Origin: Halorubrum salinum
GTDB taxonomy: Archaea; Halobacteriota; Halobacteria; Halobacteriales; Haloferacaceae
Reading direction: 5' to 3'
Assembly (NCBI RefSeq): GCF_024494575.1
Contig: NZ_JANHDO010000002.1
Span: 372,001-436,000 of the forward strand
Length of the DNA: 64,000 nt
Shown: positions 40,275 to 64,000 of the stretch, piece after piece
How positions within the stretch are numbered: the first letter of the stretch is position 1
Layout: each line of letters starts with the position of its first letter
Translations under genes and position numbers: made by a program
The notes under the pieces: model-generated
Told to the model about the DNA's origin: nothing
What the model saw: the letters and a program-made list of their open reading frames with translations, nothing else
Databases searched by the model: none

Positions 40275-41901
40275 CCGTCACCTCCGGCCGGTCGACGGCC
40301 ATCCCGCCGGCCGCGAGCGCCTCGTCCGTGGCGCTCACGAGCGCGCGGGCCTTCGCCAGCGTCTCGTCGTACTCGGCGTCCGGCTCGGAGTCGTGGACGA
40401 TCCCCGCGCCGACCCGCAGGTGGTACTCGTCGGCGTGCCGGACCAGCGTCCGTATCACGATGTTCAACGCGGCGCGGCCGTCGAACCCCGCCGCGATCAT
40501 CGACCCCGTGTAGGGGCCGCGTCGGGTCGCCTCCAACTCGTCGATGATGGCCATCGTCTTCGGCTTCGGCGCGCCGGTGATCGTCCCGCCGGGGAAACAC
40601 GCCGCGATCGCGTCCGCGAGTCCCACCCCCGGCCGCGCCTCGCCTTCGATCAGGCTCACGAGGTGCATCACCTCGCTGTAGCGGTCGACGCGGCGGTACT
40701 CGGTCACGTCGACCGTTCCGAACCGGGAGACCTTGCCGAGGTCGTTGCGTTCGAGGTCGACCAACATGGCGTGTTCGGCGCGCTCTTTGGCGTCGTCGGT
40801 CAGCTCCGCCTCAAGCGCCTCGTCCTCCTCCCGCGTCTCGCCCCGCGGACGAGTCCCAGCGATGGGCTCCGTGCGCAGGCGAGTGCCCCCCTCCGGATCG
40901 CCGGTCTCGTCGTCCGGAACGCGCTCCAAGAGCAGCTCCGGGCTCGCGCTCACGAGGTCGACGCCGCGCCGCGCGTCGCCGCGCTCGACGCCGGAGAACT
41001 CGATCAGCCCCGAGTACGGTGCCGGGTTCACCCGCCGCAGGGCGTCGTAGGCGGCGACCGGGTGGACCGCCGCCGGCGCGCGGAGCCGCTGTGAGACGTT
41101 GGCTTGAAACGTGTCGCCCGCGCGGATCGCCGCCTTCACCCGCCGGACCGCCTCGGTGTACCCCTCGCGGCCGGTGTCGCTCTCGAACGCCGCCGTCGAC
41201 GCGTCCGAGGCGGGTGCCGGTCCGACCGCCGGATCGCCGGACTCGACCCGGTCTATCAGGTCGTCCGCCCGCGCCGCCGCCGCGTCGAACAGACCGTCGA
41301 GCGCGTCCCGGTCGCTCTCGGGGTCGTCGAGGCCGGCCGGCACCCGCGGACACGCTGTCACGCGGAGCGTGACGCTCTCGCCGTCGCCGCCCGTCGGACA
41401 CTCCCACGCCGCCACGCGGTCGAAGACGCCGACCTGCAGCCGCGGGAGCCCCCGGTCGTCGACCGCACCCCGCCCCTCCGGCGGCGACGCCGGGAACGAC
41501 TCCAGCTCGCGCGCGACGTCGTACGAGAGCCAGCCGAACGCGCCACAGGGGAAGGGAACCTCGCAGTCGCCGCGCGCGAGCGTCTCTCCCTCGACGAGGC
41601 CCTCCAGGGCCGCGAGCGTCGGTGACGGTCGACGGTAGTCCCCGGTCGAGGACTCGGCCGCGACGGCCGCGTCGGCGGAGACGGTGAGCCGCTCGACCGG
41701 GTCGACGCCGAAGTAGCCCCAGCCGGACTGGCCGCCGGTGGTCTCGTAGAAGAAGCCGCCCGGCCCGTCGCGTGCGCGTCGGTACGCCGCGAACGGGTCC
41801 GCGACGGTGACGCGACACTCGACCGGAACCCGAGCGCCGGCCGACGCCGCGGCTGCGGCGGCGCGGAACCTGTCTCGGCCGGTGCGTACCGGTCGCTGCA
41901 T
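40267..41901 (-). CDS. pabB: Aminodeoxychorismate synthase component I (PabB/TrpE family)
   Basis: 544 residues. Chorismate-binding domain with [16 protein letters not shown] (PabB-like), [38 protein letters not shown] and [20 protein letters not shown]. The PIAGT motif has Ala where E. coli PabB has its active-site Lys, like TrpE. The genes for the amidotransferase and lyase follow, so a p-aminobenzoate pathway is most likely, although anthranilate synthase activity needs testing. ATG 41901 is the natural start; the frame extends upstream in Arg-rich non-coding DNA. Confidence 0.87.
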
Positions 41902-55509: not shown

Positions 55510-56273
55510 GGCGTGTCGGGGACGACCGCGCTGCGAAACCGGTCTGCGACGGCGTCGCCGTCGCCCTCGCGCACGTCGAGCCGTCCGGCCGCGCGCCGGT
55601 AACGAGCGGCGGGGTCGCTCTCCGGCGCGTGCGCGAGGAGGGGTTCGCCGGCGCGGCGGGCCGCCCGGACCGCGTCGCTGTCGGGGACGCTCGCGAGCAC
55701 GGGGCCGCCGAAGTGTCGCTCCGCCTGCGCCGTCACGTCGGCGGCTCCCTCTCGGACCTTGTTGAAGAGGACGCCGGCCGTCTCGGTGCCGTACGACCGG
55801 GCGTACTCCTGGACCTTCAGCCCGTCAGAGAGCGCGGGGATCGTCGGCTCGACGACGATCACGACGCGGTCGGCGAGCACGACGGGGAGGACCGCCGACT
55901 TCGATCCGAGCGCGGCCGGCGAATCGAGAAGCAGCACGTCGGCGTCGGCGGCGAGCTCGGCGACGACCGCCCGGAGACGCGCCGGTTCGGCCGCCGAAAA
56001 ACCCGCGAGCGACGTGCCGCAGGGCACGACGGAGAGGCCGAACCGATCGTAGGTCGCCTCCGAGACGTCGGTCGCGGTCTCCCCGACGAGCAGGTCGTGA
56101 AGCGTCACGGTCGCGTCGTCGAGTCCGGTGTGAAAGAGCAGGTTCGCCATCCCCGTGTCGGCGTCGACGACCGTGACGTCGTGCTCGTCGGCGAGCGCCA
56201 TCCCCAGGGCGAGCGTGCTCGTCGTCTTCCCCGTGCCGCCCTTGCCGCTGGCGACCGCGAACGCCTCAACCAT
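55506..56273 (-). CDS. MinD/ParA-family ATPase
   Basis: 255 residues. Deviant Walker A GKGGTGKTT (residues 10-18) with the signature Lys, switch I DADTGMANLLFHTGLDD, and VLLLDSPAALG as Walker B. The short C-terminus carries no amphipathic membrane-targeting helix of bacterial MinD type. Archaeal MinD paralogues position motility and chemosensory machinery or other cargoes; partner not known. Translation of the next gene is coupled by a 4-bp overlap. Confidence 0.9.
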   Translation of the reverse strand: MVEAFAVASGKGGTGKTTSTLALGMALADEHDVTVVDADTGMANLLFHTGLDDATVTLHDLLVGETATDVSEATYDRFGLSVVPCGTSLAGFSAAEPARLRAVVAELAADADVLLLDSPAALGSKSAVLPVVLADRVVIVVEPTIPALSDGLKVQEYARSYGTETAGVLFNKVREGAADVTAQAERHFGGPVLASVPDSDAVRAARRAGEPLLAHAPESDPAARYRRAAGRLDVREGDGDAVADRFRSAVVPDTP

Positions 56274-56324
56274 GCACAGTCTGCCCCGCGACCCAGCTAA
56301 AAGCTGTCTATCGGCCGCTGACGG

Positions 56325-56597
56325 TCACTCGTCGTGGATGAACACGAGCCGCTTCGAGTCGGTGTTGACCAGACAGAGGTCGATCCCGTCGCGGGTCGCG
56401 CCTATCTGCTGCCAGCCGTGGTCGCTCACGAACAGCGTCTGGAACACGCCGCGGTCGCAGTCCGGGTTCGGACAGCCGACGCCGGCCGCGTTCTTGTAGA
56501 CGGTCGTGCCGCCGCCGGAACTCTGCCGCACGAGCCCGTCCCGCAGCGATCTGAACTGCTCCGCAGACATCGGTCCGTCCATGTCCTCGTCTCCCAT
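56325..56597 (-). CDS. Small protein with CPNPDCD zinc-ribbon-like motif (DUF7385-like)
   Basis: 90 residues. Short cysteine motif CPNPDC near residue 42, followed by RGVFQTLFVSDHGWQQIG and DLCLVNTDSKRLVFIHDE, with a third Cys in DLCLV. From memory it resembles haloarchaeal proteins labelled DUF7385 or flagella cluster protein. ATG 56597 is supported by a TATA box centred 26 bp upstream, giving a leaderless mRNA. Confidence 0.72.
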   Translation of the reverse strand: MGDEDMDGPMSAEQFRSLRDGLVRQSSGGGTTVYKNAAGVGCPNPDCDRGVFQTLFVSDHGWQQIGATRDGIDLCLVNTDSKRLVFIHDE

Positions 56598-56618
56598 GCG
56601 CCCCTGTTTTGGCCCACA

Positions 56619-56627
56619 GTATATAAA
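56619..56627 (-). promoter_or_regulatory. TATA box for the small zinc-motif protein
   Basis: Minus TTATATACT, about 26 bp from ATG 56597, one of the clearest promoters in the window. Confidence 0.6.
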
Positions 56628-56714
56628 CCGCCTGTCTGTGGCAATCGGTGGCACGGGTAGGCGGCGGAGACGCCACCGTCGCCGCGGCGGTCGGTATCGA
56701 CCTCGGCGGGGGAG

Positions 56715-57581
56715 TCAGTCGTCGCCGCGCTTCGCCGCGTCCGCGGCCGCGTCGGCGAGACGGGTCGGCTCCGGGAGCTTGTACCCGGCACACAGCGCCT
56801 CGACGAGGCCGACCGCCGTCTCGGCGGACACGCGGTGGCCCGGACTCACGTACAGCGGGTTCACGCGGCGGCTGTTCGGGTACTGACGCGACTGGAACGC
56901 GTGGCCGATCACGGGCTGGGGGTCGTCGCCGCCCGCGTCGCTCGCCGCCGTCTCTACCGCGCCGTCGGCGCGGACCGGCGTCCGCCACCCGGCCGGGCGG
57001 CCGTCGACGGCCTCGTCCGGCTCGCCGCAGAGGAGGCTCTTCGCGACGCCGACGCTCGGAACGTCGAACAGGACGCCGAGGTGCGTCGCGAGGCCGGCCT
57101 CGCGGTAGTGGATGCGCCCCGACCCGTCACAGACGAGGAGGTCGGGATCGGCGTCGAGCGCGCGGAGCGCGGCACAGGCCGGCTCGCCCTCGCGGAACGC
57201 GAGCAGGCCGGGAATGTACGGGATCGACAGCGTCGTCGTCGCGGTCGCGTACTCGATCACCTTCCCGCCCCGGACCGCGACCGCCGCGGAGACGGCGCGC
57301 TCCGCCTCGTCGCCCGTGAGAAACGCCTGATCGACGCCGACGACGGTCGGTGCGTCGGGAGCGTCGGCGGATTCGGCGAGGTCGGCGGCTGAAGCGGTGT
57401 CCGGAACGGCCGTCGGCAGTCCGGTCGTCAGGTCCGCCGCCTCCGCTATCGCGACCGCCTCGGGCGTGAGGTCGTGGTCGTCCGCGAACGTCGCCGCCGC
57501 CGCGATCCCTCGCTGGAGCGACTTCATCTCGGTCCGCGAGAGGGCGGGGTCCGGTCGGAACGCCGGGTTCACGAGGTCCAT
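56715..57581 (-). CDS. nfi: Endonuclease V
   Basis: 288 residues. Cleaves DNA next to deaminated adenine (hypoxanthine). Core: TVVGVDQAF with catalytic Asp84, SIPYIPGLLAFREGEPACAAL, LLVCDGSGRIHYREAGLATHLG, and VGVAKSLLCGEP. The N-terminal part (about residues 1-75) is longer than in E. coli Nfi. It begins one base before the stop of the rhomboid gene, so the two are co-transcribed. Mg2+-dependent enzyme. Confidence 0.94.
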   Translation of the reverse strand: MDLVNPAFRPDPALSRTEMKSLQRGIAAAATFADDHDLTPEAVAIAEAADLTTGLPTAVPDTASAADLAESADAPDAPTVVGVDQAFLTGDEAERAVSAAVAVRGGKVIEYATATTTLSIPYIPGLLAFREGEPACAALRALDADPDLLVCDGSGRIHYREAGLATHLGVLFDVPSVGVAKSLLCGEPDEAVDGRPAGWRTPVRADGAVETAASDAGGDDPQPVIGHAFQSRQYPNSRRVNPLYVSPGHRVSAETAVGLVEALCAGYKLPEPTRLADAAADAAKRGDD

Positions 57582-58535
57582 TCAGAACCGGCCGCCCGGA
57601 CCGCCGGGGCCACCGGGGCCGCCCGGCCCGCGCACGCCGCCCATCTGCACGCCGCCCGCGCCGCCGGCGGAGCGGGCGAGCCCCTCGTTGCGCTTGCCGA
57701 ACGCGAGCCCGATCGCGAAGCCGATCAGGTGCGCGAGGTGGGCGATCCCGCCGACGCCGCCGGTCCCGCTCGTGACGACGAGGAACGCGGAGACGATCGC
57801 GACCCCCCACGTCAGGTACTTTATTTTCATCGGAATCACGAAAAAGAGGAGCACCTGCATGTTCGGCCGCCAGACCGTGAGCACGCCGAGTATCGCGAAC
57901 CCCGCGCCGCTGGCTCCGAGCACGCCGGTCGGCGGCGCGCCCGTCGCGACCGCGAAGAGGACGTGGCCGAGCCCCGCGAGTATCCCCGAGACGAAAAAGA
58001 ACGCCACGAACCGCCTCGATCCGACGGCGCGCTCGACGAGCGGGCCGAAAAACAGGATTACGGCGCTGTTGCCGATGATGTGGAAAAGCGAGAACGGCGA
58101 GTGCGCGAACACCGACGTAACGACCGTCCACACGTTTCCGAGCGCGCTCGACTGGAGCACGAACAGGGTGTTGTGGAGCGCCTGTCCCCCGACGAACAGC
58201 GCGACCTGCTGTGCGAGGAACGTGATCCACATCGCCGCGAGGATCGCGTAGGTCGCGTTGCCCCGCACGTAGCTCACGACCCCGCCGGTGCTCGTCTCGC
58301 GGTTGATCCGACGCTTGAGGCGGCTCGCGACGCCGCCGTCCCTGTCGCCCCCGGTGCCGCCGTCGACGCCCTCGTCGAACCCGCTGTCGAAGACGCCGCC
58401 CGGGTCGTTCCACTCGCCGATCCCCGGACAGTCGTGGTTCTCCGGAAGGCGGTGCTCGGCGCAGAACGTCTGACCGCACCGTTTACACTGGTACGGGAGG
58501 TTCTCGTACTCCCCACACACGTCGCACGTCGCCAT
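57582..58535 (-). CDS. Rhomboid intramembrane protease with N-terminal AN1 zinc finger
   Basis: 317 residues. Residues 4-36 form an AN1-type zinc finger with all eight ligands (Cys4, Cys7, Cys17, Cys20, Cys25, His28, His34, Cys36). A linker with a Gly/Asp-rich region leads to the six-TM rhomboid domain: catalytic Ser209 in GVLGASGAGFA and His269 in HLAHLIGFAIG; Asn156 near the first-helix region. The C-terminal end is GPGGPGGPGGPGG. The AN1 rhomboid layout is known from haloarchaea. Confidence 0.93.
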   Translation of the reverse strand: MATCDVCGEYENLPYQCKRCGQTFCAEHRLPENHDCPGIGEWNDPGGVFDSGFDEGVDGGTGGDRDGGVASRLKRRINRETSTGGVVSYVRGNATYAILAAMWITFLAQQVALFVGGQALHNTLFVLQSSALGNVWTVVTSVFAHSPFSLFHIIGNSAVILFFGPLVERAVGSRRFVAFFFVSGILAGLGHVLFAVATGAPPTGVLGASGAGFAILGVLTVWRPNMQVLLFFVIPMKIKYLTWGVAIVSAFLVVTSGTGGVGGIAHLAHLIGFAIGLAFGKRNEGLARSAGGAGGVQMGGVRGPGGPGGPGGPGGRF

Positions 58536-58604
58536 TACCCGCCCTTGTGCGGGCGCTCCTAAAGCGGTTTGGCTCCGCGTGGCGTCCCGCCGACCGCCCT
58601 CCGG

Positions 58605-59123
58605 TCACTGACCGTCCCCGTCCGCGGGTCCGGCCCCGTTCCGGACGCTCACGGCCGGCCCGGTGTCGAACGCCGCGATCTCGGGGCCCGACAGCTCCGC
58701 GCGGCCGACGGCGAACAACGCGTCGCCGTCGTCGACGACGAGCACCTCGTCGCCGGGACGAATCTCGTCGTCGACCGCGGTGACGAACTTCGCGAAGGCG
58801 TTTTTTCCCTCCCGGACGAACGGCTCGCTCTCCTCGCCCACGACGACCCGGTGTCGGGGTGCCGGAAACGCCGAGCGGAGCCGCCGCCCGCCGGCGACCC
58901 CGAGCGTGAACCGGCCGTCGGTCCCGTAGGAGACGAGCCGCTCTCCCGCGGCGCTGCCGGGCGTGTCGTCGACGTCGCCGACGAGCACCTGTCGCGGTCG
59001 GCCGCCGCTCGACCGGCGAACGGTGAGCGTCTCGTCGGGCGGGAACAGCGCCGCCCCCGCCCCGGAACCGAACTGGTAGTCGGCACCGGTCCGCAGGTCG
59101 GCGAGCGTCTCGGCGTCGGTCAT
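58605..59123 (-). CDS. PUA domain protein
   Basis: 172 residues. The C-terminal 90 residues are PUA-like (VDDEIRPGDEVLVVDDGDALFAVGRAELSGPEIAAFDTGPAVSVRNG); the N-terminal part resembles the pre-PUA region of archaeal tRNA-guanine transglycosylase-like proteins, GSGAGAALFPPDETLTVRRSSGG. Probably RNA binding, perhaps in tRNA or rRNA modification. Its start overlaps the HD domain gene stop by ATGA, so they are co-translated. Confidence 0.85.
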   Translation of the reverse strand: MTDAETLADLRTGADYQFGSGAGAALFPPDETLTVRRSSGGRPRQVLVGDVDDTPGSAAGERLVSYGTDGRFTLGVAGGRRLRSAFPAPRHRVVVGEESEPFVREGKNAFAKFVTAVDDEIRPGDEVLVVDDGDALFAVGRAELSGPEIAAFDTGPAVSVRNGAGPADGDGQ

Positions 59124-60028
59124 AGCTCGATCCGGTCGACGATCGACCCGTTGCCGTCGCCGTCGCGGTGCGTGTTGATCGCCACCGTCCGAATCTGGTC
59201 CTCGAGCATCGACCCGTCGATCTTCGCTTTGAGCAGCGAGTCGACCTGATACACCCCGGCGGCGTTGTTCATGCGGATCACGACCTGTGCGGGCGTCTCT
59301 TCGCCCTCCCGCAGCGAGACGCGCTCGATCGCCTGCGAGGAGACGGTGTTTATCCCCCGACCGCCCTCCTCGTACGGGACCCGCGAGCGGCCGCGCTCCA
59401 TGTCGAGCCCGTCGGCGATCCGGACGACGCCGGCCTCGCGCGTCAGCGGCTGTTCCTCCGTGTGGTGACACAAGATAGCGTGGAGCACCTCGGCTTTGAC
59501 CTTCACCTGATCCGGAACGCCGTAAAACGAGGCGAGGAACTCGTCGAGGAGGTCGGCCGCGAGCGGGATCGAGTAGTACGGGTGGTCGTGCCGGTGGACG
59601 ACGTGGCCGATGTCGTGGAGCGTCGCCGCGAGCGCGACTATCACCGGCTCGTCCGCCTCGTCGAGCCCCTGCTGGAGCGCGCCGTTGAACTCGACGCCGC
59701 CGGCTTTCAACAGGTCGTACAGCCGGAGCGCGCGATCCCGCACGATCTCGACGTGTTTCGCGCCGTGGTCGTTGTACCCCTTCCGGTCGACCGGATTGAC
59801 GTTCTGTGCCTCCAGGTACGCCGTGATCTCCGGGTCAGACTCGATTCGGTCTAACACCTCGTTGAGCCGGTCGTCCGGGAAGGCGTGCTCGGCGCTCGGG
59901 TCGTACTCGTGGCGGCCGGCGTCCGTGTTCTCGTCGACGTCGGCGTGCGGTTCCGGCTCCGCGCTCGGGTCGGCCGCCTGTCCCGCGTCTTCGGGGACCG
60001 GCTCCGGCTCGTCCGCGTGGTCGGTCAT
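59120..60028 (-). CDS. HD domain phosphohydrolase
   Basis: 302 residues. An acidic N-terminal stretch (about 1-50) and then the HD domain: GYNDHGAKHVEIVRDRALRL, ATLHDIGHVVHRHDHPYYS with the metal-binding His-Asp, ILCHHTEEQPLTREA and VVRIADGLDMERGRSR. Likely phosphohydrolase on nucleotides or a signalling nucleotide. Co-expressed with the PUA protein gene through a 4-bp overlap. Confidence 0.87.
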   Translation of the reverse strand: MTDHADEPEPVPEDAGQAADPSAEPEPHADVDENTDAGRHEYDPSAEHAFPDDRLNEVLDRIESDPEITAYLEAQNVNPVDRKGYNDHGAKHVEIVRDRALRLYDLLKAGGVEFNGALQQGLDEADEPVIVALAATLHDIGHVVHRHDHPYYSIPLAADLLDEFLASFYGVPDQVKVKAEVLHAILCHHTEEQPLTREAGVVRIADGLDMERGRSRVPYEEGGRGINTVSSQAIERVSLREGEETPAQVVIRMNNAAGVYQVDSLLKAKIDGSMLEDQIRTVAINTHRDGDGNGSIVDRIEL

Positions 60029-60167
60029 GCGACGAGAGAGGCGGCGTCGGGTTAAAACAGCCTCGGGCGAGCGCGTCCGGCGGCCGTACGGCTCGCAGGC
60101 TCGCGGTCGGTCCGGCGGATCGCCGCCGTCCGGAGGCTTATGTCGAGAGCCGTCGATCCGTCGTGAC

Positions 60168-60851
60168 ATGGGACTCGACGCCGAGCGGGTGTCGACGGTG
60201 ACGTTCGACTCGTACAGCACGCTCGTGGACGTGGACGCCGCGGAGCAGGCGCTCGCCGACCGCGTCGACGACCCGGAGCCCGTCTCGCGTCTCTGGCGGT
60301 CGCGCTCTCTGGCGTACACGTTCGTCGCCAATCAGGTCGACGCGTACAAGCCCTTCTACGAGATGAACCGCGACGCGCTCCAGTACGCGCTCGACGCCCA
60401 CGGCGTCGCCCTCTCGACCGAAGAACGCGACGAGATCCTCGCCGTCTATCACGAGCTCGACGTGTTCGACGACGTCCGCGAGGGGATCGAGCGGCTGCGC
60501 GACGGCGGCTACGACTGTTACGCCCTCTCGAACGGGAACCCGGAGATGCTCGCGTCGCTCGTCGACCACGCCGACATCGCGGACCTCGTGGAAGACACGA
60601 TAAGCGCCGACGAGGTCCGGACGTTCAAGCCGGCCGCCGAGGTGTACCGCCACGGTGCCGCCCGGACGGGGACCCCGATCGACGAGGTCGTCCACGTCAC
60701 CGCGGGGTGGTTCGACGTGCTCGGCGCGGGCCACGCCGGGATGCAGGCCGCGTGGGTCGACCGGAAGGGGACGCCCTGGGAGCCGTTCGCCGGCGACCCC
60801 GACGCGACCGTCGAGACGCTCCACGAACTGGCCGACGCGCTCGGGGTATAG
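60168..60851 (+). CDS. HAD-superfamily hydrolase (haloacid dehalogenase type II-like)
   Basis: 227 residues. HAD motif I TFDSYSTLVDVD with the nucleophile Asp, motif II LSNGNPEM, motif III KPAAEVYRHGAARTG and motif IV with HVTAGWFDVLGAGHAG. The pattern is type II dehalogenase-like, but true haloacid activity is not shown by motifs. A leaderless start is likely: GCTTATGT lies 27 bp before ATG 60168. Upstream of the dap operon in the same direction. Confidence 0.87.
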   Translation: MGLDAERVSTVTFDSYSTLVDVDAAEQALADRVDDPEPVSRLWRSRSLAYTFVANQVDAYKPFYEMNRDALQYALDAHGVALSTEERDEILAVYHELDVFDDVREGIERLRDGGYDCYALSNGNPEMLASLVDHADIADLVEDTISADEVRTFKPAAEVYRHGAARTGTPIDEVVHVTAGWFDVLGAGHAGMQAAWVDRKGTPWEPFAGDPDATVETLHELADALGV

Positions 60852-60892
60852 CGGGCGAGCCGCTCCCGCGGCAGGTTCGGCCCGAGCCACAA

Positions 60893-60899
60893 TCTATAA
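60893..60899 (+). promoter_or_regulatory. TATA box for the dapA leader
   Basis: TCTATAA centred about 27 bp before the GTG codons at 60922/60924. Confidence 0.5.
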
Positions 60900-60923
60900 G
60901 CGACGGAGGCGTCCACTACGGGT

Positions 60924-60998
60924 GTGAATCGAACCGCGTCCGGACGCGGCTCGCCGTCGCCGTCAGCGACGCGGCTCTTCTCGAAAAAACGCGCGTGA
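60924..60998 (+). CDS. Possible 24-aa leader peptide with Lys-Lys codons upstream of dapA
   Basis: GTG 60924 opens 24 codons ending in TGA 60996-60998. The last residues are FSKKRA: two adjacent AAA lysine codons, the only lysines in the peptide and rare codons in this genome. The start matches the predicted transcription start. No homology expected; it may be chance, but the context (first genes of lysine synthesis) makes a role in sensing lysyl-tRNA plausible. Confidence 0.35.
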   Translation: MNRTASGRGSPSPSATRLFSKKRA

Positions 60999-61031
60999 GA
61001 CGTCCACCGGCGGGAGTGGCAACCCCGTCTC
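60997..61031 (+). promoter_or_regulatory. Stem-loop overlapping the stop of the leader peptide
   Basis: GAGACG (60997-61002) pairs with CGTCTC (61026-61031); an inner CCAC/GTGG stem extends it. The stem begins at the leader peptide stop codon, so ribosome position could decide whether it forms. Confidence 0.35.
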
Positions 61032-61148
61032 GGACGACCCCCGACCGCGCGGACGCTCCGTTGGACGACGATCGCGCGATACACGACTATCGGCGCGGAC
61101 TCGTGACGCGCGACCCCACGACCCAGACCGAACACACGACGCGAACCC

Positions 61149-62135
61149 ATGACGAACACGACAACAACGACCCCGTACACGGCACAGGCGGAGACGGACC
61201 GAGACGCGACAGACGAACCGTTCGAGGGCGTCTACCCCGCGATGACGACCCCGTTCACCGAGGACGACGAGGTGGACCACGACCAGCTCGCAGACAACGC
61301 ACAGTACATGGAGCGGGCGGGCGTCGACGGCGTGGTGCCCGTCGGCTCGACCGGCGAGTCGGCGACGATGAGCCACGACGAGCACGTCGCGGTGATCGAG
61401 ACCGTTCGCGACGCCGTCGACGACATCCCCGTGATCGCCGGAACCGGCTCGAACAACACCGCCGAGGCGCTCTCGCTCTCCGAGCGTGCGGCCGACGCCG
61501 GCGCTGACGGTCTGCTCCTCATCTCCCCGTACTACAACAAGCCCGAGGCCGCCGGCTTCCTGGAGCACTACCGGACGATCGCCAACGCGGTCGACCTCCC
61601 GCAGATCGTCTACAACGTGCCGAGCCGAACCGGCCAGTCGATCCCGGTCGACGTCACCGTCGAACTCGCGGAACATCCGAACATCCAGGGGTACAAGGCC
61701 GCCTCCGGCGATCTGAACCTCATCAGCGAGGTGATAGAGCGCACCCGCGGCGAGGCCTTCTCGGTGCTCTCCGGCGACGACGGGCTCACGCTCCCCGTGG
61801 CCTCCATCGGCGGCACGGGGACGATAAGCGTGGTCGCCAACGTCGAGCCCGAGCGGTCCTGCGCGATGGTCGGCGCGGCGCTCTCCGGCGACTACGACCG
61901 CGCGCGGGCGCTCCACCACGAGCTGTCCCCGCTCGTGCGCGAGCTGTTTGCCGAGACGAATCCGATCCCGGTGAAGGAGGCCATGCACATCCGCGGGCGG
62001 GGCGGTCCGCGGGTCCGCTCGCCGCTCTCGCGGCTCTCCGAGGAGCGCCGCGGTCAGCTCCGTGACCTGCTCGCCGAGTACGAGACGAGCGAGCCGGGGG
62101 CGGTCGACGTCCCCGCCGTCGGAGGCGCGGAATGA
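61149..62135 (+). CDS. dapA: 4-hydroxy-tetrahydrodipicolinate synthase
   Basis: 328 residues. Schiff-base Lys183 in GYKAASGDL, Tyr155 in VYNVPSRTG and GSTGESATMSHDEH are the class I aldolase motifs. A Thr-rich N-terminal extension (about 25 residues) precedes the core FEGVYPAMTTPF. It condenses pyruvate with aspartate semialdehyde, the first step of the lysine/diaminopimelate branch. Overlaps dapB by 4 bp (ATGA). Confidence 0.95.
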   Translation: MTNTTTTTPYTAQAETDRDATDEPFEGVYPAMTTPFTEDDEVDHDQLADNAQYMERAGVDGVVPVGSTGESATMSHDEHVAVIETVRDAVDDIPVIAGTGSNNTAEALSLSERAADAGADGLLLISPYYNKPEAAGFLEHYRTIANAVDLPQIVYNVPSRTGQSIPVDVTVELAEHPNIQGYKAASGDLNLISEVIERTRGEAFSVLSGDDGLTLPVASIGGTGTISVVANVEPERSCAMVGAALSGDYDRARALHHELSPLVRELFAETNPIPVKEAMHIRGRGGPRVRSPLSRLSEERRGQLRDLLAEYETSEPGAVDVPAVGGAE

Positions 62136-62944
62136 GCGGCCCCGAACCGCCGCTCCGCGTCGCCGTCACCGGCGCGGGCGGCCGGATGGGACGGGAGGTG
62201 ATCGAGGCCGCGATCGACCGCGAGGGCGTCGCGGTCGCGGTCGCGGTGAACCGCTCGCCGATGGAGCCCGTCGCGGGCGTCGAGGTCCGCGACGCGGCCG
62301 ACCTCCCCGAACTGATCGCGGGCGACCGCGGCGAGGAGGGCGACGCCCCCGACGTCCTCGTCGACTTCACCGGTCCCGCCTCGGCGGTCGCGTACGCCGA
62401 GGCGTGCGCCGACGCCGGCGTCCCGATGGTCACCGGCACGACCGGGTTCGAGGGCGGTCAGCTGGACAGCCTCCGCGCCGCGGGCGACGCGGTCCCGGTG
62501 CTCAAGGCGTCGAACTTCGCGCGCGGCGTCGCCGCGCTCCGCCGGGCGGTCCGCGAGGCCGCGGCCGCGCTCCCCGGCTACGACGTGGAGCTGACGGAGA
62601 CGCACCACAACGGGAAGCGCGACGCACCCTCGGGCACCGCGAAGTCGATCCTCGACGACGTGGAGTCGGTCCGCGACGACCTCGACCGGCGCGTCCACGG
62701 CCGCGAGGGCGACACGCCGCGCGAGGCTGGCGATATCGGCGTCCACGCCCGGCGCGCGGGCGACGTGACCGGCGAACACGAGGTGCTCTTCGCCGGCAAC
62801 CGGGAGTCGATCGAACTCACGCACCGCGCCGGCGACCGCGGCGTGTTCGCCGAGGGGGCGCTCGACGCCGCCGTATGGCTCGCCGGCCGCGACCCGGGCC
62901 GGTACGACTTCGGGGACGTGCTCGACGCGGGGGACGACGCGTGA
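62132..62944 (+). CDS. dapB: 4-hydroxy-tetrahydrodipicolinate reductase
   Basis: 270 residues. NAD(P)-binding GAGGRMGREV (residues 14-23), GTTGF and the family signature ETHHNGKRDAPSGTA with the catalytic His/Lys. Same operon as dapA through ATGA overlap. A separate TATA box just upstream of dapD indicates that the downstream part may also be transcribed separately. Confidence 0.95.
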   Translation: MSGPEPPLRVAVTGAGGRMGREVIEAAIDREGVAVAVAVNRSPMEPVAGVEVRDAADLPELIAGDRGEEGDAPDVLVDFTGPASAVAYAEACADAGVPMVTGTTGFEGGQLDSLRAAGDAVPVLKASNFARGVAALRRAVREAAAALPGYDVELTETHHNGKRDAPSGTAKSILDDVESVRDDLDRRVHGREGDTPREAGDIGVHARRAGDVTGEHEVLFAGNRESIELTHRAGDRGVFAEGALDAAVWLAGRDPGRYDFGDVLDAGDDA

Positions 62945-62988
62945 GCCCGCCGCGGGTGCCGCCACGACCGCCGGCCCCACACCGACGG

Positions 62989-62996
62989 GTAAATAC
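62989..62996 (+). promoter_or_regulatory. TATA box for dapD
   Basis: GTAAATAC about 28 bp before ATG 63021, so dapD can be transcribed leaderless in addition to read-through from dapB. Confidence 0.55.
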
Positions 62997-63020
62997 CGAC
63001 CCTCGCCCACGTACCACGCA

Positions 63021-63860
63021 ATGACGCTCCGATCCGACGTATCCGATCTGTGGAACCGCTATCAGGACGGGCTGACGGCCGCCGACGCGACCGCCGAGGA
63101 CGCGGACACGCTCGACGCGTTCCTCGAAGCGCTGGAGGCCGGCGAGGTGCGCGCCGCCGAGAAGACCGGCGACGACGTGACCTCGTGGGAGGCCAACGAG
63201 TGGGTCAAGCGCGGCATCCTGCTCAACTTCGGGCTGCGCGCGACCGAGCCCCGCGAGTACGGGGACGTGCGCTACCACGACGTGCTCCCGCTGCGCGACA
63301 CCGCCGACCTCGGCGAGCGCGGCACGCGGAACACGCCCGACGGGACCGCGATCCGCCGGGGCGCGTACCTCGGCAGCGACTGCATCATGATGAGCCCCTC
63401 GTTCGTCAACGTGGGCGCGCACGTCGGCGACGGCACGCTCGTCGACTCCTGTGACACGGTCGGCTCCTGCGCGCAGCTCGGCGCGAACGTCAAGCTCGGC
63501 GCGAACACCCTGATCGGCGGCGTCCTCGAACCCGTCGAGGACGCGCCGGTGATAATCGAGGACGGCGTCTCGCTCGGCGCGGGCTGTCGCGTCACTTCGG
63601 GCTTCCGCGTCGGCGAGGACTCGATCGTCGGCGAGAACACCCTGCTCACCCCCCGGATCCCCGTCTACGATCTCGTCGAGGAAGAGGTACTCTACGGCCA
63701 CCTCCCCGCCGAGCGCCGGGCGTTCACCCGCATGGTCGAGTCGTCCGTCGGCGACCACGACCTGTTCGAGGGCGGCGCGTACAAGCCCGCGGTCGTCGCC
63801 ACGCACGTCGAGGAGGAGACGCTTGAGGCGACGCAGCGCGAGGACGCGCTCCGAGAATGA
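63021..63860 (+). CDS. dapD: 2,3,4,5-tetrahydropyridine-2,6-dicarboxylate N-succinyltransferase
   Basis: 279 residues. Left-handed beta-helix hexapeptide transferase: TAIRRGAYLGSDCIMM-like region, FVNVGAHVGDGTLVDSCDTVGSCAQLGANVKLGANTLIGGVLEP. It makes N-succinyl-2-amino-6-ketopimelate, so this organism probably uses the succinylase branch of diaminopimelate/lysine synthesis. ATGA overlap with the next gene at 63857. Confidence 0.95.
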   Translation: MTLRSDVSDLWNRYQDGLTAADATAEDADTLDAFLEALEAGEVRAAEKTGDDVTSWEANEWVKRGILLNFGLRATEPREYGDVRYHDVLPLRDTADLGERGTRNTPDGTAIRRGAYLGSDCIMMSPSFVNVGAHVGDGTLVDSCDTVGSCAQLGANVKLGANTLIGGVLEPVEDAPVIIEDGVSLGAGCRVTSGFRVGEDSIVGENTLLTPRIPVYDLVEEEVLYGHLPAERRAFTRMVESSVGDHDLFEGGAYKPAVVATHVEEETLEATQREDALRE

Positions 63861-64000
63861 GCGACGTCGGTTCCGACCGCGGCTCCGGCGACCGGGCGGC
63901 GAGCGACGCCGACGGCTCGGGGACGGCTGGCGACGCTCGCTCCGGCGGCCCCGCGGTCCGCCGCGTGTCCGACTGGGACGGCGAGGGGCTCCGGTCGATC
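63857..64000 (+). CDS. lysA: Partial gene, probably diaminopimelate decarboxylase
   Basis: First 48 codons only; cut by the window edge. A low-complexity Ser/Gly/Asp N-terminus is followed by AVRRVSDWDGEGLRSI, which resembles the start of haloarchaeal LysA. Placement after dapD and the ATGA overlap support the assignment, but catalytic motifs are outside the window. Confidence 0.6.
   Translation, partial: MSDVGSDRGSGDRAASDADGSGTAGDARSGGPAVRRVSDWDGEGLRSI

Follow-up and report, generated by a model that had tools for sequence, protein, structure and literature searches.

The dapA-dapB-dapD lysine operon in the 64,000-nucleotide stretch of Halorubrum salinum DNA analyzed here (the window) is preceded by a segment (coordinates 60895–61042) that is probably its control leader, in which a ribosome translating a short leader peptide would sense the supply of charged Lys-tRNA and set expression of the operon, in a manner resembling bacterial leader-peptide attenuation. 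We put the probability of this explanation as a whole, which is drawn from sequence comparison, at about 0.8. The first structural gene, dapA (61149–62135), encodes a 4-hydroxy-tetrahydrodipicolinate synthase (NCBIfam TIGR00674, 325.6 bits with a cut-off of 206) whose nearest relatives are in Halorubrum species; dapB (62132–62944) and the tetrahydrodipicolinate N-succinyltransferase gene dapD (63021–63860) match TIGR00036 and NF008808 respectively, both above cut-off, and all three genes and the leader lie on the forward strand. The gene preceding the leader encodes a HAD-hydrolase and ends at 60851, and a search for plasmid matches by megablast returned none.

Several features of the leader are apparent. 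First, a TATA box (TATAAG, 60895–60900) for the leader/dap transcript is followed by an ORF of 24 codons with a GTG start and a TGA stop (60924–60998; MNRTASGRGSPSPSATRLFSKKRA), ending in FSKKRA and containing two adjacent AAA codons (60984–60989), the putative Lys-Lys control codons; all of these were correctly recorded in a preliminary description of this DNA. The GTG follows the first base of TATAAG by 29 nt, and the ORF is therefore predicted to be leaderless. A leaderless GUG ORF is normal in this group, since 72% of Haloferax volcanii transcripts are leaderless and 118 of the leaderless ones begin with GUG (PMC4983044). Secondly, a hairpin begins directly past the leader stop codon (60999–61038; a 39.8-bit match to our covariance model R1), with an outer stem P1 (5′ arm CGTCC, 61001–61005; 3′ arm GGACG, 61032–61036), an inner stem P2 (5′ arm GGCGGG, 61009–61014; 3′ arm CCCGTC, 61024–61029) and a loop (AGTGGCAAC, 61015–61023) whose core, GTRGC, is conserved in sequence in alignment A1 (see below). 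Thirdly, the hairpin is followed by a pyrimidine tract (61038–61042), which is CCCCC here and U-rich in AT-richer lineages. The spacer from the leader stop codon to the dapA ATG is 150 nt, and not the 297 nt given previously.

We compared 186 regions upstream of dapA, from Halorubrum and from some 74 genera belonging to 13 families of the order (Halobacteriales), for ORFs of 14–42 codons that start with ATG or GTG, have at least two Lys among their last 12 codons, and stop 50–340 nt short of the far end of the retrieved sequence, which lies just inside dapA. Such an ORF is present in 172 of the 186 regions, and the same test finds 2 on the reverse strand and 1–7 in Markov sequences; the Lys-ended ORF before dapA is not due to chance. 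By inspection, most of the other loci have a single Lys codon at the same place, so that some leaders carry only one. The leader ORFs are mostly 22–32 codons long and, apart from their tails (e.g. FSKKRA, FSKAKRP, FPKRKRV, LLKKRAY, GKRSKR, RRKKRP and SPKRKRS), the peptides are wholly different between families; the last ten residues are 21% Lys, and the remainder of the peptide 0.3%. Within the Halorubrum set the GTG start and the 24-codon length are kept, and codons 15–24 are nearly invariant as protein. This good conservation within one genus would suit a small functional basic protein encoded next to an independent hairpin (e.g. a protein-binding or processing site), but families share only the Lys-containing tail, whose flanking residues vary freely, Lys is nearly absent from the rest of the peptide, and the distance between the Lys codons and the hairpin (see below) ties the two parts together, making such a protein a very improbable explanation. 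A leader of the arrest-peptide type, as in SecM or TnaC, was also rejected, because Lys, often followed by Arg, is all that is kept beyond a single genus. We note that the residue after the last Lys is Arg in 154 of the 172 leaders (AAA CGY), for which a Lys-sensing model gives no reason.

The choice of Lys codon differs strongly between leader and structural gene, with 256 AAA and 25 AAG codons in the leaders (91% AAA) as opposed to 3 AAA and 166 AAG codons in the dapA coding sequences of 63 loci (2% AAA). Of 48 Halorubrum-type ORFs, 35 have AAA and 12 have AAG at codon 21, and all have AAA at codon 22; the swap at codon 21 is a synonymous change through which Lys is conserved, and the Lys codons are thus kept among close relatives, as a Lys-sensing role had been expected to entail. 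Near the ends of the ORFs, and outside A runs, AAA and AAG triplets number 165 in frame and 12 and 10 in the other two frames, a count that is biased because the ORFs were selected for Lys. The position of the promoter provides evidence that is independent of choosing ORFs by Lys: in 64 of 118 non-redundant loci, the leader start is preceded at a distance of exactly 30 nt by an nnTAAR hexamer. No promoter is visible from which transcription could start just before dapA, the arrangement that the preliminary description had set against its own proposal, and 14,845 nt of hairpin-to-dapA spacers contain one TATA hexamer.

Four genomes (L366–L369), from two families in which DapA is divergent, f8 and f10, have no such leader; both families are basal in the order. 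Three of these genomes have a TATA-like box 27–29 nt before the dapA ATG, and in the fourth dapA directly follows another gene; thus, genomes that lack the leader transcribe dapA by other means, and in those that have it no promoter but that of the leader is visible. In these families dapA is found after a cold-shock-protein-like gene and has its own TATA-like box in two genomes, and directly follows such a gene in one.

The P1/P2 hairpin is the minimum-energy fold of the window sequence. It overlaps a different stem that had been proposed at the leader stop codon, GAGACG (60997–61002) with CGTCTC (61026–61031), which does exist in the window but is not kept in relatives, where the letters at the stop codon read TGAACC, TGATCC, TGACTC and so on; a covarying stem is kept among relatives, though it is another than the one first drawn. 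Alignment A1, with 50 sequences, supports both P1 and P2 (GGCGGG/CCCGUC), and has the consensus GGCGGGnGTGGCGnCCCCGTC with the loop core GUGGC or GUAGC. In this alignment 91.2% of cells are paired compared to a mean of 82.4% after shuffling, there are 61 double-change cells compared to a shuffled mean of 21, and double changes occur at 8 of the 12 pairs; none of 500 shuffles equalled the alignment in paired cells, double-change cells or covariation score, and structures slid along the alignment reach only about 39–51% pairing. Both sides have changed at P1 columns 4/39, 5/38 and 8/35, and P2 has compensatory changes in other genera from G-C to A-U and from G-C to C-G. The changes from G-C to A-U, C-G and U-A recur across families, and the shuffles remove relatedness only in part. 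RNAalifold, unprompted, gives an almost identical fold.

We also note that P2 and the loop core (GTGGC or GTAGC) are conserved in sequence beyond what pairing explains, which hints at a bound protein or other factor, or at contact with the ribosome. A sequence-conserved loop and P2 would also be expected of a lysine-binding riboswitch or other ligand-sensing RNA, with the ORF incidental. We regard this as highly improbable, as the hairpin is only about 40 nt long, and a riboswitch leaves the kept Lys codons, the choice of AAA and the Lys-to-hairpin distance unexplained; an Rfam scan of 56000–64000 gave no match to the lysine riboswitch (RF00168), even at E values up to 5, and no other relevant family at the leader region.

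The element is tightly associated with dapA, with one strong R1 site per genome, located before this gene. In nearly all of 40 genomes the best R1 match is upstream of dapA, with other matches near noise, and the best match in the H. salinum genome (G000:C2:432999–433038) is the dapA leader site itself. The strongest second match (G223:C8, 33 bits) is antisense within an aldehyde dehydrogenase-like coding sequence and was taken to be a chance match. A scan of 148 genomes across the phylum, with stricter filters (E ≤ 1e-4), gave matches only within the order. The hairpin of the window does lie 3′ of the HAD-hydrolase gene, as a terminator of that gene would, but it is downstream of the conserved TATA box and ORF start, it is present where the upstream neighbor appears divergent (e.g. 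Halolamina L068 and L073), and it tracks dapA genome after genome; because this linkage holds across different upstream neighbors, the terminator interpretation is refuted, and we give an upstream terminator, or simple chance, next to no weight.

The Lys codons lie at a fixed distance from the hairpin. Across 131 loci, P2 lies 22.6 ± 1.3 nt past the last Lys codon, counted from that codon's first base, whereas its distance from the stop codon is 12.4 ± 3.2 nt. The stop codon lies inside the hairpin in two loci (L071 and L152) and touches P2 in a third (L127), yet the Lys distance is unchanged in all three. Because the Lys distance is fixed while the stop codon moves, it is the Lys codons and not the stop codon that are tied to the hairpin. 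P1 starts some 8 nt ahead of P2, and hence 14–15 nt downstream of the last Lys codon's first base. By the dimensions of the bacterial ribosome footprint, the start of P1 is near the leading edge of a ribosome waiting at the last Lys codon, and a ribosome at the leader stop codon covers the 5′ arm of P1. From geometry, the codon placement would thus let a stalled ribosome and a stop-codon ribosome affect the hairpin differently.

These features suggest how the Lys-sensing leader may work. Transcription would begin at the GTG itself, and a ribosome would load on the emerging 5′ end and translate the 24-codon peptide, of which only one to three Lys codons near the end are kept across families. 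When charged Lys-tRNA is plentiful, the ribosome would pass the Lys codons, reach the stop codon and cover the 5′ arm of P1, so that the hairpin could not form in the meantime. When it is short, the ribosome would wait on the AAA codons and, with the last AAA about 14–15 nt before P1, would just abut the hairpin and allow it to fold. The state of the hairpin would then decide whether expression continues into dapA, with the ON state expected when lysine is short, and the role of the hairpin could be likened to that of the 2:3 antiterminator of trp.

The coupling of Lys-leader translation to an RNA fold, as first proposed, is therefore strongly supported across the order, but not in the form of two competing hairpins. 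We found no conserved competing or terminator hairpin in the 3′ arm taken together with a further 50 nt (mean z +0.33), and no conserved alternative pairings among the ORF, the hairpin arms and the downstream sequence (mean z −0.36 to +0.20, with a positive control at −3.14); classical attenuation with two competing hairpins is thus not supported. Candidates for the output step are termination, either through FttA/aCPSF1 or at U tracts, and effects on translation or mRNA decay. In archaea, U stretches or FttA/aCPSF1 can bring transcription to an end (PMC8116511), and a Rho-like surveillance of coupling has been proposed for FttA (PMC11616081); thus, ribosome-gated termination that depends on a factor or a U tract is the leading candidate. 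The more specific scheme, in which the ribosome on a leaderless mini-ORF gates one hairpin and the hairpin, or the strand left exposed, governs termination by FttA/aCPSF1 before dapA, attenuation having evolved independently in archaea, we put forward tentatively, at odds somewhat short of even. If true, ribosome-mediated attenuation would have been built on a basis other than intrinsic terminators.

Alternatively, the same Lys-sensing leader could work in the opposite sense, with the hairpin and the pyrimidine tract forming a terminator. With lysine plentiful the ribosome would finish and leave, the hairpin would form and RNA polymerase would stop; an AAA-bound ribosome touching the base of P1 would keep it open, and transcription would continue. 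This fits with a conserved GC-rich hairpin placed directly before a tract that is 75–96% C/T (at positions 15–18 past the start of the P2 3′ arm), with the 14 of 98 loci that have T runs of at least four between +10 and +35 (an interval free of A runs of three or more), and with the fixed distance being that of the last Lys codon, which is nearest to P1. However, none of these T runs is in Halorubrum, and without a U run the element would be a poor terminator in Halorubrum and in most GC-rich genera. Moreover, bacterial footprints place a ribosome stalled at the last Lys codon so that P1 is just free and one at the stop codon so that P1 is covered, and a stall on the first Lys codon would leave P1 entirely free. 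We consider a terminator role for the hairpin unlikely, though not remote.

A further alternative is post-transcriptional, with the leader ribosome and the hairpin controlling the start of translation or the stability (RNase processing) of the dapA mRNA. Both the lack of a conserved terminator/antiterminator pair and the position of dapA behind a long leader, with no promoter of its own, would be in keeping with this, but no pairing was found between the hairpin arms and the downstream sequence, and the leader stop codon is 50–340 nt from dapA (150 nt here), which is beyond the range of translational coupling in Haloferax, which works over 30–40 nt and fades beyond (PMC12548453). We think a post-transcriptional output rather unlikely. 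A uORF coupled to dapA by termination and reinitiation was rejected as unlikely at these spacer lengths for the same reason. Lys-tRNA sensing coupled to a single hairpin remains the preferred explanation of the leader.

A similar arrangement does not appear to be a general scheme for amino acid genes in Halorubrum and seems to be special to lysine, because no leaderless-type ORF with matching codons was found before trpE, hisG, the two leuA-like genes or pheS, although weaker designs could escape this search. Two other loci were noted in passing. One is a leuA-like gene of the 2-isopropylmalate/citramalate synthase family (L350/L420 in the H. salinum genome, G000:C5:136466–136566; also L336–L349 and L426–L431), for whose frame (..EFFQGT..RIFDTTLRDGEQ) Halorubrum offers no usable start codon; upstream, in a different frame, lies an ATG ORF that looks leaderless (MTDITEASSDTPADRVLPGHDSF, then a stop codon). 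About 100 nt of this locus are nearly invariant at the DNA level, and of 59 genomes from the order 30 contain a similar core; the sequence suggests a conserved +1 programmed frameshift or an unusual start. The other is a second TrpE-like (chorismate-binding enzyme) frame of about 860 amino acids on the reverse strand of the window (approximately 40327–41229); the better TrpE match is on another contig.

Attenuation by leader peptides depends on coupling between transcription and translation. Whether archaea use such coupling for regulation is an open question (PMC8116511), and a sensor present in almost all of an archaeal order, and simple to read out genetically, would make it directly testable. 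The leader would also supply haloarchaea with a lysine-responsive genetic part, and would show a use for leaderless GUG and AUG mini-ORFs. No such archaeal leader-peptide system was found in the open-access papers that were searched; most subscription papers fall outside that search, and an earlier report is possible.

The dapA leader has features in common with several known systems. As in the lysine riboswitch (L-box, RF00168), an mRNA leader would control lysine biosynthesis genes in cis, but in place of a large aptamer there is a hairpin of about 40 nt, and it is the Lys codons of an ORF that are kept. In H. volcanii, 16 uORFs have been reported in long 5′ leaders, including those of the Trp-tRNA ligase gene and pheS (PMC4983044). 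These resemble the dapA leader in being ORFs of 15–31 amino acids that start long-leader transcripts, but they have low isoelectric points and were reported without a regulatory mechanism (PMC4983044), whereas the dapA leader peptide is basic. The study does not list dapA and takes a low isoelectric point as a sign of validity (PMC4983044); a lysine sensor before dapA would suggest that regulatory uORFs are to be found among the basic peptides which such filters miss. We note that the H. volcanii uORFs of 23 and 26 amino acids before the Trp-tRNA ligase gene and pheS (PMC4983044) are candidates for similar control.

Amino acid leader-peptide attenuators are classical in bacteria, which also have Rho-dependent leader-peptide control by mgtL and similar leaders. 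As in the mgtL type, translation of the leader could control termination by a factor, with no need for a terminator hairpin; archaeal FttA/aCPSF1, a functional analogue of Rho (PMC11616081), would be a candidate for this output step. The layout resembles that of E. coli trpL, hisL, thrL, leuL and pheL: a short ORF is the first on the transcript of the matching amino acid operon, cognate control codons are located near its end, and a hairpin lies a few nucleotides past the stop codon, with a distance from control codons to hairpin that resembles that between the trp control codons and segment 2. The haloarchaeal leader differs in acting on a leaderless (often GUG) mRNA with an archaeal ribosome and RNA polymerase, in having one to three control codons, with Lys as the amino acid, and in its single conserved hairpin without a detectable competing terminator hairpin; because it lacks a terminator/antiterminator pair, we describe it as probably working like a bacterial attenuator, rather than as a strict member of that class.
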